Source: Desulfovibrionales bacterium
GTDB taxonomy: Bacteria > Desulfobacterota > Desulfovibrionia > Desulfovibrionales > Desulfonatronaceae
Direction: 5' to 3'
Length of the DNA: 38,634 bases
Assembly: GCA_007693505.1 (NCBI GenBank)
Contig: REDL01000060.1
Span: 1 to 38,634 of the forward strand
Shown here: piece by piece, positions 459 to 17,313 of the stretch
How positions within the stretch are numbered: position 1 is the first letter of the stretch
Layout: the number at the start of each line of letters is the position of its first letter
Position numbers and translations under genes: made by a program
The notes under the pieces: model-generated
The model's input: only the letters and a program-made list of their open reading frames with translations
Database searches by the model: none
What the model was told of the DNA's origin: nothing

Positions 459-1895
459 TTATGTTGCCCTGCACGGTGCCTGGGACGACACCAGCTTCCG
501 GAGCATGGTCAATTCCGGGTCAAAGGCAGGGCGGGGGATGTATTGGCCAATGCCCGGTTCGGCGGTGACGCGGCCGTTCCGGAAGACTTCCTTTCCAGCC
601 AAAAAGGTGGCCACGGGTGAGCCACGGAAGGTCATGCCTTCGAACACGCTGAAGTCTGTGGCGTGGTGGTGGGTTGCGGCGCTGACCGTGTGTTCGGCGT
701 TGGGATCCCAGAGCACGATGTCCGCGTCCGCGTCGGGGCGGATGCAGCCTTTGCGCGGGTAGATATTGAACAGCCGGGCCGCGTTGGTGGAGGTCACGGC
801 CACGAACTGTTCCGGAGTCAGGCGACCCTGGGCCACGCCGCCGTCCCAGACCACCCGCATCCGGTCCTCCAGCCCCGGCGTGCCGCTGGGCAGCCTGGAA
901 AAGTCGCGCAGCCCGGCCTGGCGTTGGGCGTCGGTAAAGGCGCAGTTGTCGCTGGCCGTGACCTGGATGGCTCCATGTTCCAGGCCGCTCCAGAGGGCCT
1001 CGCGGTCCTGTCCGGGCCGAAACGGCGGGCTCATCACGAAGCGGGCCGCGGATTGCGCGTCCTTCTGCTCGTAGACCGCGGCGTCCACGACGAGGTGACC
1101 GCCGAGACATTCGCCAAATACGGGCAGGCCGCGAGCCTGAGCCGCGATGACCGCTTCCAGGGCCTGGGCGCAGGATATGTGGACAACATAGAGCGGTGCG
1201 CCCGTGGCTTCGGCCACGGTGATGGCCCGCCAGGTGGCGTCGGCCTCGCCGGACTGGGGGTGGGTGAGCGGGTGTCCCCGAGGGTGGGTCACACCCTGGG
1301 CCAGGAGCCTTTGTTGCAGAAAGGGGATGATCTCGGCATTCTCGGCGTGCACCGTGCACAGACAGCCCAGTTCCCTGGCCCGGGCGAAACTGTGCGGCAT
1401 CTGCTCAGGGTCGAGCATGATCGTGCCCTTGTAGGCCATGTAGTGCTTGAAGGAATTGACTCCGCGCTCCCTGGCCAGCACGCCCATCTCCCGGGCGACG
1501 CTTGCGTTGAACCAGGTCACGGCCACATGAAAGGAGTAGTCGCAGGTGGCGGTACGGGCCCGGTCCATGCATGCATCAAAGGCCTGGAGCAGGGACTGGC
1601 CCTGGCCGGGGATGGCGAAGTCGATGATTGTCGTGGTCCCTCCGGCCAGGGCGGCCCGGCCACCCTGTTCAAAGTTGTCAACCGTGCGGGTGCCGGCAAC
1701 GGGCATGTCCAGGTGGGTATGCGGGTCAATGCCTCCGGGCAGGGCCAGCAAACCGCCGGCGTCCACGACCCGGGCACCGGAAGGGATGTCCAGGTCTGGA
1801 CCAACGGCGTGGATGCGGCCTTGGGAAACGGTGATATCCGCCCTGGCGGAGTGATCGGCATTGACCACCGTGGCGCCCCGGATCACGAGCTGCAT
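459..1895 (-). CDS. hyuA: D-hydantoinase / dihydropyrimidinase-family amidohydrolase
   Basis: A 478-residue cyclic amidohydrolase that hydrolyses cyclic ureide or amide rings such as hydantoins and dihydropyrimidines. It is cytoplasmic with a binuclear metal site. All expected metal ligands are visible: H59 and H61 (in DPHTHLD), the carboxylatable K150 (NSFKHYMAYKG), H183 (TVHAE), H239 (VVHIS) and D316 (TASDN). Length is normal for the family. The ATG is preceded by AAGGAGA at good spacing. E. coli places a homologue (hyuA/ygeZ) in its selenium/molybdenum purine-catabolism cluster, and the same context is seen here. The true substrate cannot be read from sequence. The last ~15 codons run into the Wzt remnant, so the C-terminus may have been altered by a rearrangement. 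Confidence 0.9.
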   Translation of the reverse strand: MQLVIRGATVVNADHSARADITVSQGRIHAVGPDLDIPSGARVVDAGGLLALPGGIDPHTHLDMPVAGTRTVDNFEQGGRAALAGGTTTIIDFAIPGQGQSLLQAFDACMDRARTATCDYSFHVAVTWFNASVAREMGVLARERGVNSFKHYMAYKGTIMLDPEQMPHSFARARELGCLCTVHAENAEIIPFLQQRLLAQGVTHPRGHPLTHPQSGEADATWRAITVAEATGAPLYVVHISCAQALEAVIAAQARGLPVFGECLGGHLVVDAAVYEQKDAQSAARFVMSPPFRPGQDREALWSGLEHGAIQVTASDNCAFTDAQRQAGLRDFSRLPSGTPGLEDRMRVVWDGGVAQGRLTPEQFVAVTSTNAARLFNIYPRKGCIRPDADADIVLWDPNAEHTVSAATHHHATDFSVFEGMTFRGSPVATFLAGKEVFRNGRVTAEPGIGQYIPRPAFDPELTMLRKLVSSQAPCRAT

Positions 1896-1946: not shown

Positions 1947-2624
1947 ATGCGCATGGATACGACAAGAATCAAGATGGCGGGCATTGTCCTGGCTGCCGGG
2001 GCCGGTCGCCGGATGGGTGGTGGGCTCGGGGGCAAGTTGTTGTTACCGTACCGCAGCGCGCCGCTGGTTGTCCATGTGGCGCGCAAGGCCCTGGCGGTCT
2101 GCGATCTGGTGGTGGCCGTGACGGGATGCAACGCTGAAGCCGTGGCCCTGGCTCTGCGGGAGACGACCTCTGTCGGGTTACGCATTGCCCATGCGCCGGA
2201 TTGGCGTGAAGGCCAGGCCCGTTCGCTGCGGGCCGGATTGGAGGCGCTTGCGCTCGAAATGGCCGAAGATATTGCCGGAGCCTTGGTCCTTCTGGGCGAT
2301 CAGCCCCTGGTGCGTCTGGAGACGTTGGAGGCGCTGGCAGCGGTTTTTCGCGATCACCCGCGAGATTTCGTCGCCCCTCGATATCGCGGCAAGCGGGGCA
2401 ACCCGGTCTGTATTCCCCGGGCATGGTTCGCGCGGGTCATGGCTCTGGAGGGGGATGCTGGGGCCCGGCCACTTCTGGATCATCCGGATGCGTTTCTCCG
2501 CCTGGTGGACGTGATGGATTCCGGGGTGCATCGGGATGTGGACACGCTGGAAGACTACCACGCACTTTTGCGAACCAGGAAATCAGTTCCCATCCACGGA
2601 TCGCACCCATCCCTCGTGGACTGA
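1947..2624 (+). CDS. mocA: Molybdenum cofactor nucleotidyltransferase (MocA/YgfJ-like)
   Basis: A 225-residue NTP-transferase related to MobA and MocA. MocA joins CMP to molybdopterin to make the MCD cofactor used by xanthine-dehydrogenase-family enzymes. The nucleotide-binding start is IVLAAGAGRRMG followed by GGKLLLPY (residues 13-35), and the metal-binding LLGDQP lies near residue 117. The first 9 residues precede the conserved fold, so ATGs at 1953 or 1974 are also possible starts. It is divergent from hyuA (51-bp gap) and overlaps yqeC tail to tail by 42 bp. It is the only plus-strand gene of the cluster, yet its function fits the xdh genes. Confidence in CTP over GTP specificity comes from context rather than residues. 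Confidence 0.85.
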   Translation: MRMDTTRIKMAGIVLAAGAGRRMGGGLGGKLLLPYRSAPLVVHVARKALAVCDLVVAVTGCNAEAVALALRETTSVGLRIAHAPDWREGQARSLRAGLEALALEMAEDIAGALVLLGDQPLVRLETLEALAAVFRDHPRDFVAPRYRGKRGNPVCIPRAWFARVMALEGDAGARPLLDHPDAFLRLVDVMDSGVHRDVDTLEDYHALLRTRKSVPIHGSHPSLVD

Positions 2625-3380
2625 CCCGGCAATCCACAGCGTCGCGGATGTCGGCCCGTCCGGCTGAGCGGCTTTGACGAGTTGCCGGGCATGACGCAGC
2701 AAAGCCCATGCAGCCTCACCAGCAGTGTCCATCTTGTTCACGAAGAGAAGCCGCCGGCATGGAGAAGCCGGGGTGTTCTTGAATAATCCTTGGGGATGCG
2801 CGACCAGGCGGGCCAGGACGTCGGCATCCACGGCTTCGATGGGAAGCGCGTCACAAAGCGCGGCCAGCCGTTCGGGTCGGAAGATATGCTCATTATCCAT
2901 GGACACTCCCAGGGCATCCGCGCCAACAATCCCGATTATCAAATCCGTTGAGTGGGGAATCACGGGTTCATGGTCCGCCGGGGCCTTGATTGCTTTGCCG
3001 CGTGCGCCGTCGGCTTCCACGAAAACCCGGTCCGCCAGTCCGGAGCTGGCCAGAAGTTCGATGCTTTCGGGAGCAAAACCAAGGAGCTTGCCCGTGGAGG
3101 ACTCCCGATCCCGGATCAGGGTCAGGGATCGATCGCGGGCGAGTCGGGCCTGGATCTTGGGCAGAGAACTCCCGTGTTCATCCCAGAAAACCGGGTTGTC
3201 CGGGCCAAAAATTCGGGTGTCAGATGCCAGTTTCGTCGTGGTGGTCCGGATTACTGTCTCGCCCCGGCGCACGGCATGGGCGGCCATGGCGGCCATCAGG
3301 CTGGTCTTGCCTCCGGCGCCCACCAGGGCGACGACCGTTGCGTCCGGCAGATAGAGTTCGTCCGGTGTGTTGCGGATCAA
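2583..3380 (-). CDS. yqeC: Selenium-dependent hydroxylase accessory protein YqeC
   Basis: A putative P-loop protein of the YqeC family, an accessory factor that accompanies selenium-dependent molybdenum hydroxylases. Its biochemical role is unproven. A P-loop GAGGKTS lies at residues 21-27, and [10 protein letters not shown] follows about 30 residues later, as in the family. I chose TTG at 3380. It overlaps the xdhC stop as TTGA, gives 265 residues (E. coli YqeC is about 256), and puts the P-loop close to the N-terminus. The frame is open further upstream to 3470, but that extension only shadows the xdhC C-terminus. Translational coupling to xdhC is likely. The 3' end overlaps mocA by 42 bp. 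Confidence 0.82.
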
Positions 3381-3892
3381 GGCGCTGTGGATTCGGTATC
3401 CATCTTCGAGGGATCGGGCTGTTCGAGGGCCTGGCGCACGGCCTGGACAATGGTTTCGTAGCCTGTGCAACGGCAGAGGTTACCGGCATGGGCCCGGCGG
3501 ATGTCCTCCGGGGTGATGTCTTCCGGATCGCGGCCCTGCTCACGGCAGGACTGCACAAAGGCCGTGGTGGTCATGATCAGTCCCGGGGTGCAGAAGCCGC
3601 ACTGCACGGCTCCGGCGTCCACGTAGGCCTGTTGGACCGGGGAGAGGCAACCGTCCCTGACCTCACCCTCCACGGTGCGGATGCGTTTGCCGTGCACCCA
3701 GGCCGCCAGATAGAGGCAGGCGTTCACGGCCGTGTCGTCCACCAGCACGGTACAGGCCCCGCACTCACCCACGCCGCAGCCCTGCTTCACGCTGGTCAGG
3801 CCCTGGTTTCGGAGCAGGTCCAGGAGGGAGGATCGGGGATCGATGGTCAGCTCATGGGGGCGGTCGTTGATGGTGCAGGAGAGGGTCAGCAT
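3377..3892 (-). CDS. xdhC: Xanthine-dehydrogenase-family 2Fe-2S subunit
   Basis: A 171-residue small subunit carrying two [2Fe-2S] clusters that pass electrons from the Mo site to the FAD. The plant-type ferredoxin domain has C39, C44, C47 and C59. The C-terminal helical domain has C98, C101, C140 and C142 (QCGFCTPG...NLCRCTGY). All eight ligands are present. The gene overlaps the xdhB 3' end by 7 bp and the yqeC start by 4 bp, so the three are translated as a unit. Length and layout match E. coli XdhC (about 159 residues). The name follows E. coli; in other bacteria xdhC denotes a different sulfurase-type chaperone. Confidence 0.93.
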
Positions 3893-4794
3893 GTCCGGGC
3901 CTCCTGGTGGTTGGCGGCGGATGACGCGAAGCGTTTCGCGGCGGTGCGGATCATTCTTTCGGCCAGGGTGCGGATGATGTGCATCCGGAAATCCCCGGCC
4001 GCCCGCCAGGAGGTGCGGGGGGAGACGTCCTGGTCCAGGGCTTCAGCCACGGCCTTGACGGCCTGGCTCAGGGGCAATCCCCGGGCCGCGGCTTCCGCGG
4101 TGGGGCAGCGCACCGGGGTGGGCGCGGCCACGGTGAAGGCCAGGCGCAGTTCGTCCACGATGCCATTGGACTGGTCGTCCCGCAGGCGGACGCCCGCGCC
4201 GCAGCCGATGGTGGCGATGTCCATGGCCTGGCGCATGGAATACTTGACATAGGCCGTGCCCAGACCCTGATCTTGTTCAGACTTGATCCGGACCGAACGC
4301 AGGATTTCCCCAGGCCGCCGTTCCACCCGGCCCGGGCCGAGGTGAAATCCACGCAAGGGGATCAGCCGTTGGCCTTCCGGGCCGATCAGGTCCAAATGGG
4401 CGTTGAGGACCAGCAGCGGGGCCGCGGAGTCGGCACAGGCCGAGCCGTTGCAGATGTTCCCGCCGATGGTGGCCGTGTTGCGAATTTGCGGTCCGGCCAC
4501 CCAGCCCGCGGCCTCGATAAGCATCGGGGCCAGGCGAGTGGCCAGGGACGAGGTCATCAGCGCGGCAAAGGTCGTGCCCGAACCGATGCGCAGTTCGCCG
4601 CGATCCGCGCTCATGCCCTCCAGCTCCGGCAGGCCGTGGATGTCCACGATGTCGGCATAGTCCTTGTGTCCCTCCCGCAACCGGACCAGGATGTCCGTGC
4701 CCCCGGCCATGGGCCGGGCAAACGGATTCGCGGCCAGCAATGCCACGGCATCGGTCAGGCTTTGGGGGCGATGGTAGGATTCAAAGGCGTACAT
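3886..4794 (-). CDS. xdhB: Xanthine-dehydrogenase-family FAD-binding subunit
   Basis: A 302-residue FAD subunit of the CoxM/XdhB type. It takes electrons from the 2Fe-2S subunit and hands them to NAD+ or another acceptor. FAD-binding signatures are [14 protein letters not shown] (residues 29-42) and [15 protein letters not shown] (109-123). Length is typical of this family. The start ATG at 4794 opens [13 protein letters not shown], the usual 'F.Y..P.SL.EA' beginning. The gene lies in the order Mo subunit, FAD subunit, Fe-S subunit, as in E. coli xdhABC. It is separated from xdhA by 177 bp that contain an unusual three-arm inverted repeat, while the next junction overlaps. Confidence 0.92.
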
Positions 4795-4971: not shown

Positions 4972-7266
4972 TCATCGCGCGCCTTCCAGCAACCCGGCAT
5001 CCCGGAACAGCGGGAACAGGGCCTTGGGGGTGAGGGGGATGAAGTCGGCCTTGACTCCGGTGGCGTTCCAGACGGCACTGCGAATGGCCGGGGCCGGAGA
5101 GAGCAGGGGAGGTTCGCCCAGGGATTTGTTGCCAAAGCCGCCAGAGGGCTCGGCGGTCTGGACAAAGGCCACGTCCAGGTCGGGCAGGTCCAGGAAGGTG
5201 GGCATCTTGTAGTCCAGCAGGTTGTTGTTGCGCACCCGGCCGGAGCGCGGATCCACCAGCAGCTCCTCGTACAGGGCCCAGCCGATGGCCATGGCCATGC
5301 CGCCCTGGGCCTGCCCCTTGGCCGTGATCGGGTTGATGACCACGCCGCAGTCATGGACATTGAGCATATCCGTGACCCGGACCCGGCACAGTGGAATATC
5401 CACCTCCACTTCAACGAACGTGCAGCCGAAGGACGGTGCGTTGGACCTGGTCTTGACCGAGCGCTCCGCCGTGAGCTGTCCGCCCCGGTTCTTGTGGTAG
5501 TAGGCATCCAGGGCCAGTTCCTTCAGACTCATGAAGACCCGCGCAGGCTGGCGGGTCGCGACAAGGGAGCCGGCTTTCAGGTCCAAGGCTGATGCCGGAT
5601 AGCCGGTCATCAGCGCCGCATGGTTCAGGATCCTTGCGCGCAGCTCCAGGGACGCGGCCTTGACCGCCGGGCCGACCACGTAGGTCTGGCGGGAGGCGAA
5701 GGCCCCGGGGTCAAAAGGGGTCACGTCCGTGTCCTGGGTGGAGACCACGCGCAGCGAAGTCACTGGCAGGTCCAGAACCGCGGCGGCCATCTGGGCAAAG
5801 ACCGTGTCCGCTCCCTGGCCGATTTCCGTGGCTCCGGCCTGAAGCGTCACACAGCCGTCCTGGTTCAGGGTCAGGCGGATCCCGGAAATTTCCACACCCA
5901 CGGGATAGACCCCGGAATTGAAGCTGAAGCAGGCCACACCCACGCCGCGGCGTATTTCCGGGGCAGCCTGCGTGATTTGGGCCGCAGCCCGGCGCTCGTC
6001 CCAGCCAAACCGCTCCCGGCCCAGGCGCAGGCAGTCGGCCAGGCCATGGGTTTCGATGGGTTTGCCCGAGCGGGGGTTGACGTCGCCGGGCCGGCCGGCA
6101 TTGATCCGGCGCAGATCAAGCGGGTCCATGTCCAGGGCCTTGGCCGCCTCGTCCAGGAGGCATTCGCAGGCAAAGATGATCTGGGGTGAGCCGTAGCCGC
6201 GCATGGCCCCGGCAATGGGCAGGTTGGTATAGACCGTGGCCGCGTGGAAGCGTACCGCGGCATGGGGGTACATGCTGCACAGCTTGCCTCCGCCGGCGGA
6301 GACCACGGAGTGGCCGTGGGAGGCGTAGGCCCCGGTGTTGGACACGGCGTCCATGTTCATGGCCAGCAGCCGTCCGTCCCGGGCAAAGCCCGCCCTGCCC
6401 CGGATGCGCATGGCATGGCGGGTGCGGGTGATCATGCTTTCCTCCCGGGTCAGGGCCATGCGCACCGGGCGGCCCAGCTTCCAGGCCAGGAAGGCAACCA
6501 TGGGCTCCAGGAGCACGTCCTGCTTGGCCCCGAAACCGCCGCCAACGTACGGTTTGACGATCCGCACCCGGCTCCAGTCCAGGCCCAGGGCCTGGCCCAC
6601 CACCCGGCGGCAGATGTGCGGGATCTGGGTGGAGGTGACCACGGTGATCCGCTCCATGTCCTCCATGTAGGCGTGGGCCACCACGGGCTCCATGTGGCAG
6701 TGCTGGGTCACCGGGGTCTGGTACTCGCCCTCCACCACCACGTCAGCCTGGGCCAGGAGCGCGTCCACGTCTCCGCCCACGCTGAACCCGTCCTGCTTGA
6801 CGATATTTCCGCCGGGATGGATGGCGAATGCTTCTTCAGCCATGGCCTCCCGGGGATCGGTGAGCACCGGCAATTCCTCGTAGGACACCGCGACCAGGCT
6901 TGCGGCGCGTTGGGCCGTGAGTTCGTCCCGGGCCACCACCACCCCGATTTCGTCACCGTGGAAGCGGACATGCCCGGTGAGCAGTAATCGGTCGGCCACG
7001 TCGGCATGGTCCGGATCGAGGGAGAAGGGATGGCCGGCCGGAGCGTAGAGCAGCCTGGGCACGTCGGCATGGGTGAAAACGGCTTCCACTCCAGGGAGGG
7101 CCAAGGCCGCGGACAGGTCCATATCCAGGACCCGACCGTGGGCCACGGAGCCGCGGATGTACACAGCCGAGAGCACGCCAGCGGGGAGCAGGTCCTCGGT
7201 ATACCGGGCCCGGCCCGTGACCTTGGCTTCGGCGTCCAGACGGGTGACGGGTTGCCCGATGCTCAT
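4972..7266 (-). CDS. xdhA: Xanthine-dehydrogenase-family molybdenum-binding subunit
   Basis: A 764-residue catalytic subunit (E. coli XdhA is about 752) that hydroxylates purines or related N-heterocycles at a molybdopterin centre. Mo-cofactor contacts are visible as VGGGFGAKQD (241-250) and MRGYGSPQ (355-362). The conserved catalytic glutamate is E718 in SLGEPPLLSPAPAIRSA. No in-frame TGA suggests selenocysteine, which agrees with selenium acting as a labile ligand in this group. It sits downstream of yqeB with a 7-bp gap and upstream of xdhB. The yqeB, yqeC and ygfK neighbours argue for a selenium-dependent hydroxylase. Whether the substrate is xanthine, hypoxanthine, nicotinate or another heterocycle cannot be told. 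Confidence 0.93.
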   Translation of the reverse strand: MSIGQPVTRLDAEAKVTGRARYTEDLLPAGVLSAVYIRGSVAHGRVLDMDLSAALALPGVEAVFTHADVPRLLYAPAGHPFSLDPDHADVADRLLLTGHVRFHGDEIGVVVARDELTAQRAASLVAVSYEELPVLTDPREAMAEEAFAIHPGGNIVKQDGFSVGGDVDALLAQADVVVEGEYQTPVTQHCHMEPVVAHAYMEDMERITVVTSTQIPHICRRVVGQALGLDWSRVRIVKPYVGGGFGAKQDVLLEPMVAFLAWKLGRPVRMALTREESMITRTRHAMRIRGRAGFARDGRLLAMNMDAVSNTGAYASHGHSVVSAGGGKLCSMYPHAAVRFHAATVYTNLPIAGAMRGYGSPQIIFACECLLDEAAKALDMDPLDLRRINAGRPGDVNPRSGKPIETHGLADCLRLGRERFGWDERRAAAQITQAAPEIRRGVGVACFSFNSGVYPVGVEISGIRLTLNQDGCVTLQAGATEIGQGADTVFAQMAAAVLDLPVTSLRVVSTQDTDVTPFDPGAFASRQTYVVGPAVKAASLELRARILNHAALMTGYPASALDLKAGSLVATRQPARVFMSLKELALDAYYHKNRGGQLTAERSVKTRSNAPSFGCTFVEVEVDIPLCRVRVTDMLNVHDCGVVINPITAKGQAQGGMAMAIGWALYEELLVDPRSGRVRNNNLLDYKMPTFLDLPDLDVAFVQTAEPSGGFGNKSLGEPPLLSPAPAIRSAVWNATGVKADFIPLTPKALFPLFRDAGLLEGAR

Positions 7267-7273
7267 GCGATGC

Positions 7274-8209
7274 TCATCCGGTTCTCCCCAGGTGGATGGG
7301 TAAGGTTACTGGTTTGGAAACAGATTTCGGCTGGGACGGGTCAATGTCCGGCTCACGCCCGGATACCGTCGCGGACCGGAGGCCGTGCAGGTGGGCGCGG
7401 ACAGCCCTGACCACGCCCCGGCCCACGGACCGGGCCTTGTCCGAGACGCGGCGACAGCGCCACGTCTCGCTCCTGGGGTCAATATCCCCCAGTTTCAAGC
7501 CTTTTCGGACCATGACGCCGGAACGCAGCAGGCCGCGGATCACCCCGGAGGTCCGTGCCGTCACCGGAGCGGCATCGTCGTTGGTGGCCACCTGGCCGAC
7601 AACCTCGCCCTGTTGGACAACGTCCTCAATGGCCCGCCGGGCGGTGAAGAGGCCGTCCATGGGCGCGCGCAAAAGCCGCTCCACTGTCTTGCCCAGAACC
7701 GGGCCGGGAATGCCGGTGTTCGGAAAGGCCGTGCCAGAGGTGCGGATCTCGCCAAGGCCGTGACCGCGGTGGGTCTCCACCACGCAGTGCACGTGCTTCC
7801 CGGCGCTGAAGCCCGGTCCCAACCCGATGACCAGAGGCGCCAGCCCCAAGTGCACCCCGGTATTGCGCTTGGCCAGCAGGGCATCGACCAAGACATGCGG
7901 GTGAAAATGGGACAGGGGCTGCTTCAGGCAGGTCGTGTCCGGGTCGACAAGAACCGGGATTTCTCCCTTGGCCCAGGCCGACGTCGCCTCCTCCAAGGCG
8001 TGAATCCGTACAGCCTGAACCCCTTCCACATCAACCCGAACCTCGTGAACCGCCTCGGAAAACACCACCAGCCGCCGCACGGCCAAGGGCTGCTCCCGCT
8101 CCAGCAATACCAGGTGCCGAAAACCGGCCTCGTACAGCTCAAGGGCAACACCGGTGGCCAGGTCGCCGGCTCCGCGGATGAGGATGGTTGGGCAAGAGGG
8201 GCTGATCAT
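7274..8209 (-). CDS. yqeB: Selenium-dependent molybdenum hydroxylase maturation protein YqeB
   Basis: A member of the EF2563/YqeB family, accessory to selenium-dependent molybdenum hydroxylases and often used as a genomic marker of that trait. The N-terminus has a Rossmann-like TILIRGAGDLATGVALELYEAG. Further on are GLAPLVIGLGPGFSAGKHVHCVVETHRGH and a lipoyl/biotinyl-like ARTSGVIRGLL segment. I chose ATG 8209 (311 residues) because family members begin just before the GAGDLATG motif. An ATG at 8284 would add 25 unconserved residues. The exact step is not established; delivery of selenium to the Mo centre is the usual proposal. The 7-bp gap to xdhA implies one transcript. Confidence 0.86.
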   Translation of the reverse strand: MISPSCPTILIRGAGDLATGVALELYEAGFRHLVLLEREQPLAVRRLVVFSEAVHEVRVDVEGVQAVRIHALEEATSAWAKGEIPVLVDPDTTCLKQPLSHFHPHVLVDALLAKRNTGVHLGLAPLVIGLGPGFSAGKHVHCVVETHRGHGLGEIRTSGTAFPNTGIPGPVLGKTVERLLRAPMDGLFTARRAIEDVVQQGEVVGQVATNDDAAPVTARTSGVIRGLLRSGVMVRKGLKLGDIDPRSETWRCRRVSDKARSVGRGVVRAVRAHLHGLRSATVSGREPDIDPSQPKSVSKPVTLPIHLGRTG

Positions 8210-8399
8210 GGTAATGCAATAATCCGCTACATTCCGTCTGGAAATCGACCAGGCTGCTATCACTTCATGACATGTGTCATGCATCTAGTCATCAAAGTCA
8301 GCTCCTGAAATCTTTTCCAAGGGCTCAAAATTTTGCGCTCGCTCCCAATTGATTAACAACTCAACCTGATGCGTTTTGCACCACTCTCGCACGATTTTT

Positions 8400-11159
8400 T
8401 CAATCTAAAAGTACCCCCAACGGAGACCCCATGATCATGATGAACAGCAATCCCGCCTCCATGGCTGGTGCAAGGTCGGCCTGATCCGTGTGCGGAGGCA
8501 GGTCGGCGCTGGTGAGTGCCAGGGTATCCGGGTTGAGGGTGAGGGTCAAAGATTTGCTTTCATAGCGCAGGCCCTGGGCAGTGCGGGTCAGGGTTGCCGG
8601 GGTGCCGTTGTGCAGGATTTCCATGCGGTCCGGCGTGGCTGGGAAATAGCCGTTTTGTTCGTCTTCAAAGCTGGACCTAGTCAGGTGAATGCGCGGCTTG
8701 TCCCTGAAGGGCGCTCCGGAGGACGGGCAAAAGGTGGCGCAGTTGCCGCAGGTATTGCAGACGTCGGCCAGGATCACGATCTGGGTGCAGTCTGCCACGA
8801 GACGGTTTTCCCTGATGCGGATGGCGGGAGTGCCGTCCGGACTGCGGTAAACATCCCCCAGGGGAATGGGGCCGATGAAGGACGGCAGGGCCATGATGGC
8901 TCGGTTGGGGCAGACCGTGACGCAGATTTCACACAGGCTGTCGCAGCGCAGACAGCGGGCGGCTTCCTGGGACATGGCTTCGTTGTCGGTGACTTTCAGA
9001 GCCCCGGACTCAGGCCCGGCGTACGGGCCGAAATCGCGGACATGGCGGGCCAGGTGCAGGGCCGTGATATCGGCTTCGGGGCGCTGCGTAGAGCCAGAAC
9101 AGAAGCCGTTGGCTTGCAAATACGCCTGCGCGGCTTCGCGGCCCAGGGTCACGGCCTTGGGCAGGCTGGCGGGGCCGGTGGGCAGGGGGGCGTCAAAGGT
9201 GATGACGTGGGCGTTCTTCGGCTGGTCCTGGGCCGCGCCCTCAAGGACAGTGAGCGTTCCGGTTCGTGTTCCGACCGGAGCAGGGTCTTGTCGGCTCAAA
9301 GCGCTCAGATCCGCGAGGTCCGCAAGCAGGGCGCGCTGGGCCGGCGAGGCGATGTCCGCCTGGTTGGCGTTTTCCGGTACCAGCAGGGCCACGTTCACCC
9401 CGGCCTGGATCAAGGTTCCGGCACAGCTTACGCTCCGGGTGTCCAGGCCATGCACAACCACGGATACAGCGGCTTCTGCGCTCTCAATTGTTTGAGGCCG
9501 GTCCAATGCATTGATCTGGTGGCCGGCTGGACCGGTGCTTCCCTGGCGGGCCGCCACGGCCTTGGCCTCCCGGATACGCAAGGGCGTGTCCAGGTTGCCC
9601 CGGGTGCAGCGCTTGCGGCAGAGGGCGTCGCAGGCCAGACCCAGGTGGTGGGCCGTGGGGTTGGTGGCCCGGATGGTGGCCAGGGCGTTTGCGGGATTCT
9701 TTTGCGCAAAATGGCCCAGATAGGCCGGAATGTCCTGGCCGGCGGCGCAGGCCGAGGTGCAGGGGGCGATGAAGCAGTCCAGGCGAGGCAGTGGGCGAGG
9801 GATTTTTACGTCGACACTGGTCTTGGCCGTTTTGGCATAGCGTCTGGCCGTTGCCGTGGACACGGCATAAGCGGCCAGGCCGGGCCCCTGGGCCTGCCAT
9901 GTGTCCAGACTGGAGGCACCAGCCGCGGCCATCCGTTCCCCGAGGACCTCCAGGTATTGGCGCAGACGGGCGTAGCCGCCGGGTTTGAGCAGGTCGCTGC
10001 AGGTGGTCACCGGTCCCAGCCCGGCGGCCAACAGATCCGGGATGTTGAAGGCATCGGCCCCGGCACAGAAGGACATGGGCGGACAGCCCTCGACGTTTGC
10101 TCCGGTCATCTTTGCCCCAGAATTTTGATGTTCCCCCAGGTGCTCCCGCAACAGCAGGGCGACATGGACCGCCAGGGGGTGCAAAGGACGGCCGCTGCAA
10201 TAGACCTGGGACTCCGCTTCGGGCAGGGCCGAGCGGTTCACGCAGGGCAGGGTGTTGGTCAGCTTCAGGTTGAAGGTCACGCCCCGTTTGCGGGCCGCGG
10301 CGGACAGGGTGCGGATGATGGGCAGGGCCTGAGCCAGGGACAGATCATTGGCGAAAACCGCATCCGGGACCTCCAAGTCCCAGCCCAGGCCCCAAAGCAG
10401 GGCGCGGACCCGTTCCGGCCCGAGTAGGGTGGGGTTGAGCTTCAGGGTGGTGTGCAGCCCCCGGTCCTCGATGAAATGCAGGGCAATGCGCTGGATCTCC
10501 CCCGGAGGACAGCCGTGCATGGTGGAAATGGTCAGGCTGTTGCTGATTCCATCAGGCAGATTGACATCAGCCAGCTCCGGACAGACCCTGGACAAACGTG
10601 CCGCCGCCTCGGCCATGTCATCGGGACAATGGGCCATGCGGTCCAGGAAGCGGGCCATGGCCGGGCTGGTGATCCCGGCCAGGTCGTACCCGGCGCTCAT
10701 GTTCAGGATGAAACCAGGGTCGCGGCCGATCTCGCTGTTGGGAAAACCCATCTTGCGGCGCAGGGCCAGGATCAGCAGCAGGCCATGCAGGTACTCGTCA
10801 AAAGACTGGTCCAGCTTGAGTTCCTGGGACCACTCGCAGTTGTAGCCCTCGTCGCGCATGTCAATGCACGGCCTGGCTAAAGTCAGCTCATCCAGAATCT
10901 GAACGGTCTTCAACTCCAGATACCGCCCCCCGCACAGCCAGGCGGCCACCAGGTTGCGGGCCAGCTGCGTATGCGGTCCGGCAGCCGCGCCGATGGGCGT
11001 TTCCAGATGCTGCCCATAGCGGGTCATGGTAAAGGGGGCGTCCGGGGCCGGCCGATAGAAGCAGGCCTTGGGAATGGCCAGGATCTGGCCCTGCTCGAGT
11101 TCCTCCAGCAGGGAGGCCAGAAGTCGGTCGTGAGGGAGGAGGTGAAAGCGGTCCATCAT
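8400..11159 (-). CDS. ygfK: YgfK-like iron-sulfur oxidoreductase with eroded flavin module
   Basis: A 919-residue relative of YgfK ('putative selenate reductase subunit'). The N-terminal ~430 residues resemble a dihydroorotate/dihydropyrimidine-dehydrogenase-type barrel (STMHGCPPGEI, KLNPTLLGPERV, FNLKLTNTL). A GltD-type Fe-S entry domain follows, with C467, C471, C510, C514 and C518. Ferredoxin motifs then appear at C736/C739/C743/C746/C750 and C801/C804/C807/C811. The FAD/NAD(P) domain that should lie between (about 300 residues in E. coli) is reduced to about 150 and lacks GxGxxG: VVVHGLDTRS stands where VIGAGPAGL is expected. ATG 11159 was chosen; the upstream TTG at 11252 lies in the tRNA terminator. 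It is the first gene of the cluster, 190 bp before yqeB. Confidence 0.85.
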   Translation of the reverse strand: MMDRFHLLPHDRLLASLLEELEQGQILAIPKACFYRPAPDAPFTMTRYGQHLETPIGAAAGPHTQLARNLVAAWLCGGRYLELKTVQILDELTLARPCIDMRDEGYNCEWSQELKLDQSFDEYLHGLLLILALRRKMGFPNSEIGRDPGFILNMSAGYDLAGITSPAMARFLDRMAHCPDDMAEAAARLSRVCPELADVNLPDGISNSLTISTMHGCPPGEIQRIALHFIEDRGLHTTLKLNPTLLGPERVRALLWGLGWDLEVPDAVFANDLSLAQALPIIRTLSAAARKRGVTFNLKLTNTLPCVNRSALPEAESQVYCSGRPLHPLAVHVALLLREHLGEHQNSGAKMTGANVEGCPPMSFCAGADAFNIPDLLAAGLGPVTTCSDLLKPGGYARLRQYLEVLGERMAAAGASSLDTWQAQGPGLAAYAVSTATARRYAKTAKTSVDVKIPRPLPRLDCFIAPCTSACAAGQDIPAYLGHFAQKNPANALATIRATNPTAHHLGLACDALCRKRCTRGNLDTPLRIREAKAVAARQGSTGPAGHQINALDRPQTIESAEAAVSVVVHGLDTRSVSCAGTLIQAGVNVALLVPENANQADIASPAQRALLADLADLSALSRQDPAPVGTRTGTLTVLEGAAQDQPKNAHVITFDAPLPTGPASLPKAVTLGREAAQAYLQANGFCSGSTQRPEADITALHLARHVRDFGPYAGPESGALKVTDNEAMSQEAARCLRCDSLCEICVTVCPNRAIMALPSFIGPIPLGDVYRSPDGTPAIRIRENRLVADCTQIVILADVCNTCGNCATFCPSSGAPFRDKPRIHLTRSSFEDEQNGYFPATPDRMEILHNGTPATLTRTAQGLRYESKSLTLTLNPDTLALTSADLPPHTDQADLAPAMEAGLLFIMIMGSPLGVLLD

Positions 11160-11293: not shown

Positions 11294-11370
11294 TGGTGCG
11301 CCCGGAGAGATTCGAACTCCCGGCCTGCGGATTCGAAGTCCGACGCTCTATCCGGCTGAGCTACGGGCGC
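11294..11370 (-). tRNA. tRNA-Arg (anticodon TCG), CCA encoded
   Basis: A 77-nt cloverleaf including CCA. The acceptor is GCGCCCG paired with CGGGCGC plus discriminator A. The D arm is GCTC..GAGC, the anticodon loop CTTCGAA places TCG at positions 34-36, and the T arm is CCGGGAGTTCGAATCTCTCCGG. The anticodon reads CGN arginine codons. The top pair of the anticodon stem (T27-C43) is mismatched; all other stems pair. It is transcribed alone, between its own promoter and terminator. The 3' CCA is encoded at 11294-11296. Confidence 0.97.
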
Positions 11371-11519: not shown

Positions 11520-11548
11520 TTGACGAAATGTTGCCCAGCATCGATAGT
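11520..11548 (+). promoter_or_regulatory. Candidate promoter of the Mrp antiporter operon
   Basis: TTGACG (11520-11525), a 17-nt spacer and GATAGT (11543-11548) form a good sigma-70-type promoter. The expected start near 11555 would leave a leader of about 90 nt before mnhE. It is the only strong candidate in the gap, and the following seven genes overlap or nearly touch. Confidence 0.5.
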
Positions 11549-11644
11549 GCCTGGGCAAAGGAATCTGTATGCGTCGGGCAGCAATTCGGGCCATCCGGCG
11601 AAGTCGGATCATCACAACGGCAGGCAAAAGGCTGGAGGGACGGG

Positions 11645-12187
11645 ATGCGCGATGCATCTTTTGCAGGAAACCATCTCGCGCGATTCTGGCAAACACAGAG
11701 GAACGGCGTCGGCCTGCCTCTGCGTTTGGCCCTGGCGATGCTGATCTGGTGGATTCTCATGGACGGCAGTGGGGCGGATATGTTGCCCGGCCTGCCGGTG
11801 GTCATTCTCGCGGCCCTGACACCTCCCTACCTGGGCAAAAGCAGGCCCTGGAAGTGGAGTTTTTCGGCGTTGCTGCGCATTTTGCCCGTCTTTCTCTGGT
11901 TCTCCATGCGCAGCGGAGTGCAGATTGCCTATCTGGCGCTGCTCCGGCATCGCTTGCTGACACCGGAAGTGATGACGTATGCGTGGCGATTGCCGCCGGG
12001 GCCGGCCCGGCTCTTTTTGGCGAGTATCATCAATCTTGTACCGGGAACCCTGAGCATGCAAATCCGGGAAGAAGCCCTAACGATTCATTTTCTGCACAAT
12101 GCCCAGGCCAACGTGTCATCCGTTCAGGTGCTGGAGGAGATGGTGGGCGATCTCTTTCAGACAGCCCTGCTTGAGAGGCCGCAATGA
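11645..12187 (+). CDS. mnhE: Mrp Na+/H+ antiporter subunit E
   Basis: A 180-residue MnhE/MrpE (MbhA-type) subunit of the hetero-oligomeric Mrp cation/proton antiporter in the inner membrane. Two hydrophobic segments lie near residues 24-39 and 46-60, more follow, and then the family motif LVPGTLS (131-137) and a polar C-terminal domain. ATG 11645 was chosen because GGAGGGA ends 4 nt before it. The frame is open back to 11528, but that extension is polar and lacks a ribosome site. The stop overlaps the mnhF start as ATGA, so the two are translationally coupled. It is the first gene of the antiporter operon. Confidence 0.88.
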   Translation: MRDASFAGNHLARFWQTQRNGVGLPLRLALAMLIWWILMDGSGADMLPGLPVVILAALTPPYLGKSRPWKWSFSALLRILPVFLWFSMRSGVQIAYLALLRHRLLTPEVMTYAWRLPPGPARLFLASIINLVPGTLSMQIREEALTIHFLHNAQANVSSVQVLEEMVGDLFQTALLERPQ

Positions 12188-12471
12188 CCACCTTGTATCT
12201 CGTGCTGGTGGGCGTATTGATGGGCAATATTGCCGTGGGATTGCTTCGCATTCTGCGGGGCCCCACGGCCGCGGACCGCATCCAGGCCGGGCAGCTCTTT
12301 GGGACGGTCACCGTGGCGATCCTGCTTCTTCTGGCCATTATTCTGGAAAAACCCATTTATTTCGACGTGGCCCTGGTTTTTGCCCTCCTTTCGGTCCTGG
12401 CGGTGGTGGCCTTTGTCACCCGCAGCTGGCCCCACCCGGACGCAAAGGACCAGGATGAGCAGCGCGACTGA
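12184..12471 (+). CDS. mnhF: Mrp Na+/H+ antiporter subunit F
   Basis: A 95-residue MnhF/MrpF (MbhB-type) subunit. Three hydrophobic helices fill the protein, with the family motif LLRILRGPTAADRIQAGQL between helices one and two. Its start overlaps the mnhE stop, and its stop lies inside the mnhG start region. MnhF is needed for assembly and activity of Mrp complexes, though its own transport role is unknown. Size and order E-F-G match the family exactly. Confidence 0.9.
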   Translation: MTTLYLVLVGVLMGNIAVGLLRILRGPTAADRIQAGQLFGTVTVAILLLLAIILEKPIYFDVALVFALLSVLAVVAFVTRSWPHPDAKDQDEQRD

Positions 12472-12763
12472 CATGTTTGGCGCGGCCCTGGCAGTGGTCG
12501 GCGTGCTGTTCTTTCTGGCCGGAACGCTTGGTCTGCTGCGCTTTCCGGACATCTATACGCGAATTCATGCTCTGACCAAGGCCGACAACCTCGGCCTTGG
12601 TCTGATCTGTCTTGGCGCCGCGGTGCAGTCAGGAAGCCTCATGACGGCCCTGAAGCTGCTGCTGATCTGGATTCTGGTTCTGGTGGCCGCGGCCACCGGG
12701 GCCAGCCTGATCGCCCAGACTGCCCATGGACGGGGCATCCCACCGTGGACGCGGCAGGAATGA
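12455..12763 (+). CDS. mnhG: Mrp Na+/H+ antiporter subunit G
   Basis: A 102-residue MnhG/MrpG (MbhC-type) subunit. The signature GLLRFPDIYTRIHALTKADN lies between the first two of three hydrophobic helices. I chose ATG 12455 because AAGGA precedes it at suitable spacing; it overlaps mnhF by 17 bp. ATG 12473, directly after the mnhF stop, is an alternative with no clear ribosome site. The following gene starts 4 nt after this stop. Confidence 0.9.
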   Translation: MSSATDMFGAALAVVGVLFFLAGTLGLLRFPDIYTRIHALTKADNLGLGLICLGAAVQSGSLMTALKLLLIWILVLVAAATGASLIAQTAHGRGIPPWTRQE

Positions 12764-12766
12764 TTC

Positions 12767-13735
12767 ATGGCCGTGTTTGACCTGATTCTTGGCCTGCTGC
12801 TGGTGATCCTGGTCCGCAAGTGCCTGAGCATCACGGATATGTTCGGCGCGGTGATCAGTTTCATGGCGTTCGGGTTGCTGATGGCCGTGGCCTGGGTCCG
12901 GTTGGAAGCGCCGGATATTGCCTTGGCCGAGGCGGCCATCGGCTCCGGCCTGACCGGTGCCTTGCTGTTTTCCACGCTCGGCCGCCTGCCGCACTCTGAA
13001 ACCAGGCAGCCTTTGGTTCCCAGGGGGAGTGGCAGCGGACCCGGATACTGGCTGGTCACGGGATTCTGGTGGGCCGCGGCCATGGTGCTGATCGCCACCT
13101 TTGTTTTTTCCTTTCAGGAGCTGCAAACACCAGGACTGGGCGGTCCTCTCCAGGAGAGGCTTGCCGAATCCGGGGTGCTCAATCCGGTCACTGCGGTGCT
13201 GCTCAATTTTCGCTCCCTGGATACCCTGATGGAAATCGCCGTGCTGCTCGCCGCCGTGGTGGTGGCCTGGTCCATGGGCTACGTGGACTGGCCCGCGCGG
13301 CAGACAATTCCGTCACCGCTGTTGCCTGGGGTGGTGCGGCTGTTGACCCCGGTATTCTTGCTGGTGGCCTTTTCCCTGCTCTGGCGCGGCAGCCATGCCC
13401 CTGGCGGGGCCTTTCCCGGAGGTGCGGTCCTGGCGGCATCGGGCATCCTGCTGCTGTTGTCCGGGATGACCGTGCAGATCAGCCCGCGGGGCATGTCGTG
13501 GCTGCGTTGGGTGCTGTCCGCGGGGCTGCTGGTTTTCGTCCTGGCTGGAGTCAGCCTGATGGCTGCCGGGTTCGGCTTTCTGGTCTACCCTGAGCAATGG
13601 GCCGGAAACCTGATCCTCCTCATTGAGGCAAGTGCCGGGGTTTCCATAGGAGCCATGCTGCTGGCCCTGTATGTCGGCGGTGAGCCCGATATGGCCCCGT
13701 CCCAGCCTAATAATCCCGTATCGAGGCCTCAATGA
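12767..13735 (+). CDS. Fused MbhD-MbhE-MnhB antiporter subunit
   Basis: A 322-residue membrane protein that appears to join three subunits usually separate in archaea. Residues ~1-75 match the DUF4040/MbhD fold (SITDMFGAVISFMAFGLL...RLEAPDIALAEAAIGSGLTG). Residues ~90-180 match MbhE (GVLNPVTAVLLNFRSLDTLMEI). Residues ~185-310 are MnhB (LTPVFLLVAFSLLWRGSHAP, GGAFPGGAVLAASG). In bacterial MrpA the first two parts form the C-terminal end of the large A subunit, whereas here they precede B. The stop overlaps the mnhC start as ATGA. It belongs to the proton/cation channel module of the antiporter. Start ATG 12767 gives a hydrophobic first helix at once. Confidence 0.88.
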   Translation: MAVFDLILGLLLVILVRKCLSITDMFGAVISFMAFGLLMAVAWVRLEAPDIALAEAAIGSGLTGALLFSTLGRLPHSETRQPLVPRGSGSGPGYWLVTGFWWAAAMVLIATFVFSFQELQTPGLGGPLQERLAESGVLNPVTAVLLNFRSLDTLMEIAVLLAAVVVAWSMGYVDWPARQTIPSPLLPGVVRLLTPVFLLVAFSLLWRGSHAPGGAFPGGAVLAASGILLLLSGMTVQISPRGMSWLRWVLSAGLLVFVLAGVSLMAAGFGFLVYPEQWAGNLILLIEASAGVSIGAMLLALYVGGEPDMAPSQPNNPVSRPQ

Positions 13736-14028
13736 CCGGCTACTATCTGATCCTGGCCGTGGTGATCCTGGCCATGGCCTTTCATGGCCTGATGGTCAGG
13801 GCCAATCTTTTGCGCAAGCTCATGGCCTTGAACATCTTTACCAGCGCGGTTTTTCTGTTTCTCGTCACCCTGGCCCGCATGGCCGAGCCCCTTGATCCAA
13901 TACCCCATGCCATGGTGCTGACCGGCATCGTGGTCACCGTGAGCACCACGGCAGTGGGCCTGGCGCTTTTGGTCCGTCTATATCGTCGCAGCGGTTCCCT
14001 CACGCTTGACAGCAGCAATGATGATTAA
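13732..14028 (+). CDS. mnhC: Mrp Na+/H+ antiporter subunit C (NuoK-like)
   Basis: A 98-residue MnhC/MrpC subunit homologous to NuoK of complex I. Three transmembrane helices are seen. The family segment DPIPHAMVLTGIVVTVSTTA lies at residues ~55-74, and the N-terminal helix contains the NuoK-like LMVRANLLRKLMALNI. The start overlaps the preceding stop by 4 bp and the next gene begins 14 bp downstream. In Mrp complexes, MnhC links the B and D subunits. Confidence 0.92.
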   Translation: MTGYYLILAVVILAMAFHGLMVRANLLRKLMALNIFTSAVFLFLVTLARMAEPLDPIPHAMVLTGIVVTVSTTAVGLALLVRLYRRSGSLTLDSSNDD

Positions 14029-14042
14029 AATCCGGGTTCAGC

Positions 14043-15529
14043 ATGGCTGAATGGATTCCGGTGGTGATCATTTTCGCGCCGTTGCTGGCGGCCGTACTCG
14101 TGTTTACGCAAGGCATGCGGGGGTCGCTGGCCACTGTGACTGCCGGCGTGTTCGTGCTGATTGGGGTCGTTGCCCTGGGAGCCGACGTATTCAGGCTGGG
14201 TCCTTGGATAACCTGGCAGCTCGGCGGATGGCCTGTGCCTCTGGGACTGCGCTGGCAAGCCGACAGTTTCACCGTGGCCATGCTGGCCATGACGAATGTG
14301 GTGGCCGTGAGCGGGGGGCTGTTCAGTCTTGGTTTCCTGCCCGCGGTGCTGCCATCGGCCCAGCGGCATTTCTGGACCCTTTGGCTCTTTGGCTGGGCGT
14401 CCATGAACAGCCTGCTGATGGCCGCGGATCTCTTCAACATCTATGTCGGTCTGGAATTCATGGCCCTGGCCGCCGTGGGGCTGATCTCCCTTTCCCGGGA
14501 GGCTGAAGCCCTGCGGGCGGCCATGCGCTATTTTCTGGTGACGTTGTTCGGCTCCATGCTCTATCTGCTTGGGGTGGCGCTCCTGTATGGGCAGTATGGG
14601 TTGCTGGATCAGGCGGCCTTGGCCGCGGTCCTGGCACCCGGGCCGGCAAGCGGGTCCGCCGCTGTCTTGATGACTCTCGGGCTGTTGATCAAAACAGCGC
14701 TCTTTCCCCTTCACTTCTGGCTGCCTTCGGCGCACGGCAAGGCTCCCGCGCCGGTCAGCGCCCTGTTGTCGGCCGTGGTCGTGGCGGTCTGCTTCACGGT
14801 CCTGTACCGCTTTTGGACCGGCCTTTTTTTCGTTTTTCTCCAGGAACAACCAGCCATGGTTCTGGGTGGTATCGGGCTGGCGTCGATGCTTTGGGGGGGG
14901 TGCAGGCCTTGCGGCAGCAACGCCTGAAGATGATTGTGGCCTATTCCACCATTGCCCAGTTCGGGTATGTGATGCTGCTATTTCCGGTGTTCGCCTCCAG
15001 TGGCCAACTGGTCCTGGCATGGCATGGAATGGCCATGCTGGTTTTGGCCCACGGCCTGGCCAAGGCCGCCCTTTTTTTTGCCGCCGGCTGTTTTCAGCTG
15101 GCCCATGGACACGACCAGTTGCGTGATCTTTCCGGAGGGAGGGGGCGATTGGGCTGGGTCTGGCTGGCGTTTGCCCTGGCAGGGGCCAGCATTGTCGGGT
15201 TGCCTCCCACCGGCGGCTTTGTCGGCAAGTGGTGGCTGCTCCAGGCGGCCCTGCTCGGAGAGGTCTGGTTCTGGGCCGTGGCCATGGTCCTCGGCGCGCT
15301 TCTGACCGGAGCCTACATGTACCGGAGTCTGGAGGCAGCCTGGCGTCCGGTGGGTTTCTCGACGGGTTTCCCGGTGGATTCGGAGGAGGCGGTGCAGACC
15401 GTGCCGGGAATGCTGGTGGTCGTGACCATGGTTTGCGCGCTGGGAGCCGTGGCTCTTGGCTTTCTGGCGTTTCCAATGGAGGCCTTTTTGGGGCCGACGT
15501 TTGATTCGTTGCCGGGAACAGGTGGTTGA
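14043..15529 (+). CDS. mnhD: Mrp antiporter subunit D, interrupted by a frameshift at a G8 run
   Basis: A NuoM/N-like proton-translocating subunit, about 495 residues if read through. The first frame (14043-14927) encodes the N-terminal half with GLEFMALAAVGLISLS and LIKTALFPLHFWLPSAHGKA. It stops soon after a run of eight G at 14893-14900. The same protein resumes in another frame with VQALRQQRLKMIVAYSTIAQFGY, GLAKAALFFAAG and LPPTGGFVGKW, ending at 15529. One extra G, or two fewer, would restore a single normal-length frame. The homology is seamless on both sides, so this is a sequencing indel, a phase-variable tract, programmed slippage or a recent mutation. It lies mid-operon; the break would kill MnhD if not bypassed. 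Confidence 0.88.
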
Positions 15530-15534
15530 CGGTC

Positions 15535-17313
15535 ATGTTTGGGGATCTTTTTTGGGGCCACGGTTCGAACCTGCTATTGTTGCTTGCGCCGCTCGCGCCC
15601 CTGATCACGCTGCTGGCCATGGCCCGACCCAGTTCCAGGCAAAAACTGGTCACGATCGCTCCCTGGTCCGCGCTGCCGGCCCTGCTGCTGGGGCTGATGC
15701 TGCCCGTGGGCGCCCAGCTCGACCTGCCGGGAACATGGTGGCAGGCCGGTCTGATCCTGGACGACGTGGGCCGTTTTTTTCTGGTGGTTACTGCGCTGCT
15801 CTGGCTGTTGTCCGGAATTTTCGCCACGGCCTGGTTTGGTGGGGAGCACGCGGACCGCCGACGGGATCACTTGTTCATGGCCTTTTTTCTGGCAGCCATG
15901 GCCGGCCATTTCGGCCTGATCCTGGCCCAGGATATTCCCACCTTCTATCTCTGCTTCGCCCTGATGGGTTTTTCCAGCTACGGGCTGATTGTTCATGACC
16001 AGACCTGGTCCTCCCGTCGGGCCGGCCGATTGTATCTGTTCATGCTCATGGTCGGCGAGCTGGGGCTCTTTGGCGGGGTGGCCCTGGCGGCGACACAGTC
16101 GACCGCAATGCTGCTTCCTGGGCTTGGTGGTGCCTGGGTTCCAGGTTTTGCCGCGGTGCTGCTCTTTGCCCTGGGTTTGGGCATCAAGGCGGGCATGCTG
16201 GGAGGCCATGGCTGGCTGCCCCTTGCCCATCCGGCCGCTCCGATACCGGCCAGCGCCGTACTCAGCGGGGTGATGATCAAGGCCGGATTGTTTGGATGGT
16301 TGAGATTGACCCCCCTGGAGACGGGATGGACGGCGGCATGGTCGGAAGCGTTTTTTGGGGTGATGATGCTCCTGGGCGCGACTGCTGCCGTGTATGCCGC
16401 CGTAGTCGGACTGTGGCAGAAGACTCCGAAGACGATTCTGGCCTATTCCAGTGTCAGCCAGATGGGGTGGTTGACCCTGCTGCTGGGTGCGTATCTGGCG
16501 TATCCGACGTATCCGACGTATCCGACGTATCCGGCGCACCCGGTGTATCCGGCGTATCTTGGCAACAGCGATCTGGGCCAGGCCGCCCTGATGCTGTTTA
16601 TTCTGCATCACGCCCTGGCCAAGGGTGCGTTGTTCCTTGGTGTTGGGATATTGCAACGCAGTGCAGGAGCATTTCGTCGGCTCGCCTGGTGGCTGTTGTT
16701 GCTGCCGGCAGCGGCCCTGGCCGGGTTTCCGGCAACCAGCGGCATGCTGGCCAAGCATGCCCTGGAGGCGGTGGTCGGCCCTTTGGCGGGGCATATGCCT
16801 CTGACGTCACTGTTTTTTCTGGCCACCTTGGGCACCACGCTGCTGATGGGGCGGTTTCTGCTGACCGTTAGGTCTTCTGGTCCAGATTCCAAGGCAAAGA
16901 GGGCGATGGTTCCCGGTCTTTGGTTGCCGTGGCTTCTTCTGCTGGGACTGAGCACGACGCTGCCATGGCTCTGGCTGATTGGCCAGACCCCTGACGAGGC
17001 TGCCGCCTGGGCTGGCGCAGTCTGGTCTCTTGAGACGCTGCGCAAGGGGGGAGGACCATTACTGTTGGGAGGGGTGATCGTGATCATGGCCCTCTCCCGG
17101 CCTTGGCCATGGGCCACGACATTCGGAACGGCACTTCTCAAGGAGCTGCGTATCCAACGGCATCAACGGGAACGAGGCCTGCGTCGCTGGTGGCGACGAC
17201 AGGAGTCCGCTGCCCTGCACTTTGAACACCGGCTTCAGCAATGGCCCACAGCCGGCCGGGCCTTGATCCTCCTGGCCGTTCTTCTCGGGGGCAGCCTGTT
17301 GCTGGCATTTTGA
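15535..17313 (+). CDS. Mrp antiporter ND5/MnhA-like (second MnhD-type) subunit
   Basis: A 592-residue NuoL/NuoM-type proton-pumping antiporter subunit. Core motifs are GLGIKAGMLGGHGWLPLAHP with the key lysine K218, then PKTILAYSSVSQMG, HHALAKGALFLGVG and AGFPATSGMLAKH. It lacks the DUF4040/MbhE tail of full MrpA, which is instead fused to MnhB upstream. It therefore acts as the A-type (or second D-type) partner. A polar stretch near the C-terminus (about 525-570) precedes a last helix. ATG 15535 was chosen over TTG 15526; GGTGG lies nine bases before it. Residues ~320-340 contain a tyrosine-proline tandem repeat not expected in the family. It is the last gene of the operon. Confidence 0.85.
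   Translation: MFGDLFWGHGSNLLLLLAPLAPLITLLAMARPSSRQKLVTIAPWSALPALLLGLMLPVGAQLDLPGTWWQAGLILDDVGRFFLVVTALLWLLSGIFATAWFGGEHADRRRDHLFMAFFLAAMAGHFGLILAQDIPTFYLCFALMGFSSYGLIVHDQTWSSRRAGRLYLFMLMVGELGLFGGVALAATQSTAMLLPGLGGAWVPGFAAVLLFALGLGIKAGMLGGHGWLPLAHPAAPIPASAVLSGVMIKAGLFGWLRLTPLETGWTAAWSEAFFGVMMLLGATAAVYAAVVGLWQKTPKTILAYSSVSQMGWLTLLLGAYLAYPTYPTYPTYPAHPVYPAYLGNSDLGQAALMLFILHHALAKGALFLGVGILQRSAGAFRRLAWWLLLLPAAALAGFPATSGMLAKHALEAVVGPLAGHMPLTSLFFLATLGTTLLMGRFLLTVRSSGPDSKAKRAMVPGLWLPWLLLLGLSTTLPWLWLIGQTPDEAAAWAGAVWSLETLRKGGGPLLLGGVIVIMALSRPWPWATTFGTALLKELRIQRHQRERGLRRWWRRQESAALHFEHRLQQWPTAGRALILLAVLLGGSLLLAF
16492..16554 (+). repeat. In-frame 9-bp minisatellite inside the antiporter gene
   Basis: Seven consecutive 9-bp units: TATCTGGCG, TATCCGACG three times, TATCCGGCG, CACCCGGTG and TATCCGGCG. 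They encode YLA, YPT x3, YPA, HPV and YPA in the loop after the AYSSVSQMG helix. The period keeps the reading frame, so unit gain or loss would change loop length without breaking the protein. Three units are identical, which suggests recent slippage. Confidence 0.92.

Follow-up and report, generated by a model that had tools for sequence, protein, structure and literature searches.

A YgfK-type reductase of Desulfovibrionales that lacks the FAD/NAD(P) module and probably takes electrons from a ferredoxin-like carrier

The window analysed here, a stretch of 38,634 nucleotides (contig REDL01000060.1, assembly GCA_007693505.1) from a Desulfovibrionales bacterium, carries a ygfK-type gene whose product has kept the barrel and both Fe-S domains of YgfK and has lost the FAD/NAD(P) module between them. 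We consider it probable that this protein is a catalytically maintained reductase of the YgfK lineage in the anaerobic uric-acid pathway, that it has been stripped of the FAD/NAD(P)H module, and that a ferredoxin-like carrier delivers electrons via the Fe-S clusters to its FMN. In E. coli, yanthine (2,8-dioxopurine) is converted by YgfK acting with SsnA and NAD(P)H, as part of a reductive uric-acid pathway (Li et al. 2025, PMC12507026). According to modelled cofactor sites, YgfK holds FMN at the substrate site and an FAD that accepts the electrons of NAD(P)H (PMC12507026). The name 'selenate reductase' for YgfK is outdated. An earlier note on this DNA had suggested, as a possibility, a distinct branch of the selenium-molybdenum hydroxylase system. 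This view has to be updated: YgfK works beside a selenium-dependent Mo hydroxylase, but YgfK itself is a flavin-dependent reductase of the reductive uric-acid pathway (PMC12507026). The gene and the parts of its product are located as follows.

8403-11159, minus strand: ygfK-type gene of the window, 919 aa, without FAD/NAD(P) module; stop codon at 8400-8402
9852-11159, minus strand: DHOD/DPD-type FMN barrel, residues 1-436 (TIGR03315 match up to residue 593; fold match to DHODH/DPD)
9531-9785, minus strand: GltD/DPD-type N-terminal Fe-S domain (Fer4_20; FeS1), residues 459-543 (PF14691, E 9e-13)
8955-9527, minus strand: remnant of the FAD/NAD(P) module, residues 545-735 (alignment, motif loss, low pLDDT)
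9432-9461, minus strand: VVVHGLDTRS, residues 567-576, at the position of the FAD GxGxxG (alignment)
9111-9164, minus strand: surviving terminal helix of the flavin domain, residues 666-683, containing LGREAAQAYL (alignment and AlphaFold)
8724-8954, minus strand: 2x[4Fe-4S] ferredoxin domain (FeS2), residues 736-812 (Pfam and conserved columns)

The open reading frame (8403-11159, minus strand) has no internal stop. NCBIfam TIGR03315 (YgfK) matches the window protein with 543.5 bits, best over residues 3-593 and below the curated cut-off of 835.3. Pfam recognises Fer4_20 at residues 459-534 and a C-terminal Fer4 domain, and gave no match to a pyridine-nucleotide or FAD domain on this protein. 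The DHOD-like barrel, the GltD-type cysteine domain and the ferredoxin motifs had been described as intact from the sequence alone, and comparison of conserved columns bears this out. For columns in which full-length homologues agree to at least 95%, the share retained by the window genus is 88% for the barrel (121 invariant columns), 88% for FeS1, 95% for FeS2 and 21% for the FAD/NAD region. The window protein has every one of the 15 invariant Fe-S cysteines, six in FeS1 (Cys 462, 467, 471, 510, 514, 518) and nine in FeS2 (Cys 736, 739, 743, 746, 750, 801, 804, 807, 811). Across all shortened forms examined, 97 of the 121 invariant barrel columns are retained. In the window genus, 14 barrel residues that are near-invariant elsewhere have been lost.

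The stretch from the last FeS1 cysteine to the C-terminal RCLxC measures 211 aa in the window protein versus about 391 aa in full-length homologues, in line with the earlier estimate of a flavin domain of half the usual length. VVVHGLDTRS aligns exactly with V(I)xGAGPxGL of the full-length homologues, as proposed for the place where VIGAGPAGL was expected, and LGREAAQAYL (residues 672-681), interpreted before as the surviving terminal helix, indeed aligns with the conserved GDGRxAAxxI helix. The NAD(P) GxGxxG had been reported missing, and neither GxGNxAxD nor AGGD was found in the stretch between the two Fe-S domains. We infer that the rest of the flavin domain serves as a spacer that separates these two domains.

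Structure prediction agrees with the alignments. AlphaFold, applied to the window protein with an alignment of 62 sequences, gave pLDDT values of mostly 85-97 in the barrel and in the C-terminal Fe-S part. For residues 542-663 pLDDT was below 50 (around 28), which may partly be explained by the almost complete lack of homologous depth in the alignment there. For the full-length homologue L036 (38 sequences) pLDDT was about 90 across the same module. A conserved FAD fold, which would have spoken against the loss, was sought in the model of the window protein; none was seen, and residues 542-663 adopt no confident fold. A canonical FAD site in the remnant is therefore not supported by the predicted structure. 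In VIA-align comparisons the barrel of the window protein reached Z scores of 24-25 to DHODH and pig DPD (Z 24.7 and 2.9 Å over 293 residues for the latter); the list of matches consists of barrel matches throughout and says nothing on the remnant. The barrel is thus recognised by its fold, and FMN binding is predicted. The C-terminal half of L036 matches NfnA/StnA (Z 44-47) and also GltD and DPD. By motifs, length and fold, the FAD/NAD(P) module that characterises YgfK is not present between the Fe-S domains of the window protein.

Of seven congeneric genomes, four encode the same shortened form (70-90% identical) and three have no ygfK; because four genomes share the form, a sequencing error, a chimera or chance was rejected as its origin. 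It is common to all five ygfK-bearing species of the genus, with an intact open reading frame in each and 203-211 aa between the Fe-S domains. Relatives were examined for a full-length domain, which would have marked the window copy as degenerating; the closest ones carry the same deletion. Across the five species, dN/dS values after Nei-Gojobori were 0.13-0.19 for the barrel and 0.27-0.51 for the remnant, which is relaxed, yet below 1. FeS2 also showed high values (0.3-0.85), being a short stretch with few synonymous changes. Amino-acid divergence is highest in the remnant. Judged by these sequences, the barrel is under purifying selection in the species that share the loss, and the window gene does not appear to be a decaying single copy.

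Outside the window genus, shortened ygfK was found in 12 further genomes, seven from the same order (L150, L151, L153, L155, L157-L159) and five from the order of the Desulfobulbaceae/Desulfocapsaceae (L033-L035, L183, L184). In a tree built without the flavin region, and with no root inferred, the shortened forms fall into two groups, and 0% of the bootstrap trees give them one origin. An initial, larger tree had 16 'short' rows, one of which (L089) is a truncated open reading frame and was dropped; with this row set aside, the larger tree agrees with two groups. The extent of the loss is graded. In the five Desulfobulbales forms the loss is confined to the NAD(P) segment, and both GxGxxG and AGGD are still there. 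Within the Desulfovibrionales, GxGxxG remains and AGGD has gone in L150, L153 and L157-L159; the motifs of L151 and L155 have degraded in part, and GxGxxG, GxGNxAxD and AGGD have all disappeared in the window genus, whose stem branch is long (1.3 changes per column). The module thus appears to have been lost twice in sulfate-reducing bacteria. That the NAD(P) part went first and the FAD part later is the simplest reading, drawn as it is from living sequences and a tree without an inferred root. Alignments, tree, structure models and congeners together support the earlier view of a lost FAD/NAD(P) core and of a distinct, conserved branch. One of the shortened forms (L159, genome G130) belongs to a small-genome Desulfovibrionaceae species and is accompanied by a complete uric-acid cluster.

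The neighbouring genes of the window include the following.

7274-8284, minus strand: yqeB, selenium-dependent molybdenum cofactor maturation (TIGR03309, E 1.6e-89)
4972-7266, minus strand: xdhA, Mo subunit of xanthine dehydrogenase (NF043082, 1148 bits)
3886-4794, minus strand: xdhB, FAD subunit of xanthine dehydrogenase (NF043083, over cut-off)
3377-3892, minus strand: xdhC, 2Fe-2S subunit (NF007387 and NF043084, over cut-off)
2583-3470, minus strand: yqeC, selenium cofactor biosynthesis, start codon uncertain (TIGR03172, over cut-off)
1947-2624, plus strand: mocA-like molybdenum cofactor cytidylyltransferase (TIGR03310, E 6.7e-42, below cut-off; PF12804)
459-1895, minus strand: hyuA-like D-hydantoinase/dihydropyrimidinase (TIGR02033, 531 bits, over cut-off)

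The genome also holds the partners of YgfK in the reductive uric-acid pathway. SsnA, an FAD-less Se_dep_XDH, YgeY and YgeW are encoded elsewhere in the genome, outside the window. Within the genus, a close SsnA match, Se_dep_XDH, YgeY and YgeW each occur in all five ygfK-positive species and in none of the three ygfK-negative ones; SsnA of the window genus scores 312 bits against a cut-off of 455. For several Desulfovibrionaceae forms the pathway genes stand in one cluster with YgeX, carbamate kinase and a xanthine-type permease. Each of the 15 genomes with a shortened form that were tested has the FAD-less Se_dep_XDH. None of these 15 contains a YgfM-type FAD subunit (E<1e-20), which 6 of 11 full-length genomes do have. 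With two independent origins, and five full-length genomes also without YgfM, a link between the shortening and the absence of YgfM is suggestive only, and a strict link was dropped on account of those five.

Further observations concern the surroundings of the gene. A tRNA-Arg gene (anticodon TCG; 11294-11370, minus strand) lies directly upstream of ygfK. In the window genome ssnA and the Se-type XDH are found on another contig (L129), while ssnA adjoins ygfK in three genomes (G003, G004, G006), which suggests that a rearrangement took place. Upstream of the Se-type XDH and SsnA on that contig (3925-5466, plus strand) a PALP-fold enzyme of 514 aa is encoded, which is only distantly like cysteine synthase and could stand in for the YgeX lyase. 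Beside ygfK starts an Mrp-like Na+/H+ antiporter cluster (11528-17313, plus strand) with MnhE, MnhG, MbhD/MnhB and two Proton_antipo_M subunits; it adjoins ygfK in one congener (G002) too and was not seen beside ygfK in the other three ygfK-positive congeners. An Mrp/antiporter-type membrane subunit (PF00361; 14043-15529, plus strand) is split over two frames (14043-14906 and 14894-15526) by a frameshift or an assembly error; a congener (L128) has a single open reading frame of 503 aa for it.

How the window protein may be supplied with electrons is indicated by clostridial enzymes. In PydAc of Clostridium chromiireducens the FAD/NADPH domains are missing, and FMN and two Fdx domains are retained; the enzyme accepts electrons for the reduction of uracil from reduced ferredoxin or methyl viologen, and NAD(P)H does not serve as donor (PMC7332683). 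UacX of C. difficile also has no FAD domain (PMC12507026). Because the window protein keeps the same domain set as PydAc, an entry of electrons from ferredoxin over Fe-S to FMN is proposed: the donor, be it reduced ferredoxin, flavodoxin or another low-potential protein of this kind, would deliver directly to the retained Fe-S clusters, the electrons would pass along these to the FMN in the barrel, and this FMN would reduce the purine ring. By analogy to PydAc a supply by ferredoxin is plausible. The presumed substrate is that of E. coli YgfK, a distant relative, and it could have drifted, given the long stem branch and the loss of 14 near-invariant barrel residues. Ferredoxin-like small open reading frames (CxxCxxCxxxC, <220 aa) were not found in the ygfK neighbourhoods examined. 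A recurring small open reading frame (c83), considered as a dedicated neighbouring donor, was rejected; it reads as nucleotidyltransferase-like and was seen next to ygfK in no more than three of the five species. For both sulfate-reducer lineages we tentatively propose, as a possibility, that the uric-acid pathway has been uncoupled from NAD(P)H by an FAD-less Se-type hydroxylase together with a YgfK from which the NAD(P) part was lost first, followed in the window genus by the FAD part.

Electrons of NAD(P)H might instead reach the Fe-S domains through a separate FAD/NAD(P)H protein of the same genome, for instance one like GltD/NfnB or thioredoxin reductase, that docks in trans. Many bacterial PydA enzymes are indeed split into two open reading frames (PMC7332683), and free-standing homologues of the module exist in every genome searched, with about 490-540 aa (E 1e-50) in seven of eight and with about 353-394 aa in most. 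Nevertheless, we regard such a partner as rather unlikely: none of the free-standing homologues of the FAD module is specific to species with ygfK, none was observed next to this gene, and the persistence of the terminal helix and the spacer suggests erosion in situ, not gene fission. A split-off FAD module was rejected, the candidates not being confined to ygfK-positive species.

The remnant (residues 545-700) might also still form a small alpha/beta fold that has taken on a new role, for example to dock the donor protein or to bind a different cofactor. The stretch measures 203-211 aa in each of the five species, dN/dS of the remnant stays under 1, and stretches resembling alternating strands and helices can be made out by eye. 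With a pLDDT of about 28, though in an alignment with almost no homologous depth at this place, and with the highest amino-acid divergence of all regions, a new role seems quite improbable to us. That the gene is degenerating and its product no longer a reductase would fit the lost motifs, the long stem branch and the relaxed dN/dS of the remnant; it is very hard to reconcile with a reading frame intact in five species, a barrel dN/dS of about 0.15, the retention of every Fe-S ligand and the co-occurrence of ygfK with the whole pathway. A maintained reductase supplied by a ferredoxin-like carrier is the reading we prefer.

The donor of anaerobic uric-acid degradation decides whether its cost is paid in NAD(P)H or in ferredoxin, and YgfK has been characterised only recently. 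Proteins whose flavin module ranges from complete to absent exist in nature and offer material for testing which portion of YgfK the use of NAD(P)H requires, and whether the Fe-S clusters suffice as a path to FMN. Caution is advised in annotating shortened forms as NAD(P)H-dependent or as 'selenate reductase'. Shortened forms also occur in several Desulfovibrionaceae, a family with gut members, and may bear on the turnover of uric acid in the host. If the uncoupling from NAD(P)H is true, uric acid would be a sink for electrons at the level of ferredoxin, and intermediate steps of this change would survive in relatives living today.

Compared with known systems, the window protein is homologous to YgfK (TIGR03315, E. 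coli yanthine reductase) in the barrel, both Fe-S domains and the family C-terminus, and SsnA, HyuA and the Mo hydroxylase are shared as gene partners. It differs by a motif-less remnant in place of the FAD/NAD(P)H module and by 543 bits versus a cut-off of 835. No report of an FAD-less YgfK was found in the open-access PMC literature; FAD-less nucleobase reductases are already known with PydAc and UacX. Like these ferredoxin-type enzymes of Clostridia, the window protein combines an FMN-type barrel, recognised by fold only, and ferredoxin domains without an FAD/NAD(P) domain, and belongs to a reductive dearomatisation pathway of a nucleobase. PydAc and UacX derive from DPD/PydA (PF01180 barrel), whereas the window protein has its origin in YgfK and still contains part of the flavin module as a remnant; PF01180 (DHO_dh) gave no match to it at E 1e-3, and its nearest sequences are YgfK. 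Pig DPD has the barrel fold and the Fer4_20 domain in common with it, but in another domain order and with complete FAD and NADPH domains. NfnA/StnA of the NfnABC-type transhydrogenases are the closest solved relatives of the C-terminal half of full-length YgfK (Fer4_20, FAD/NAD, Fer4; Z 44-47, E 1e-130 to 1e-116), and the FAD/NAD part they share with full-length YgfK is the one lost in the window protein. By the curated model and the missing module the window protein is not a standard YgfK; it is a YgfK-derived variant that probably works like PydAc.
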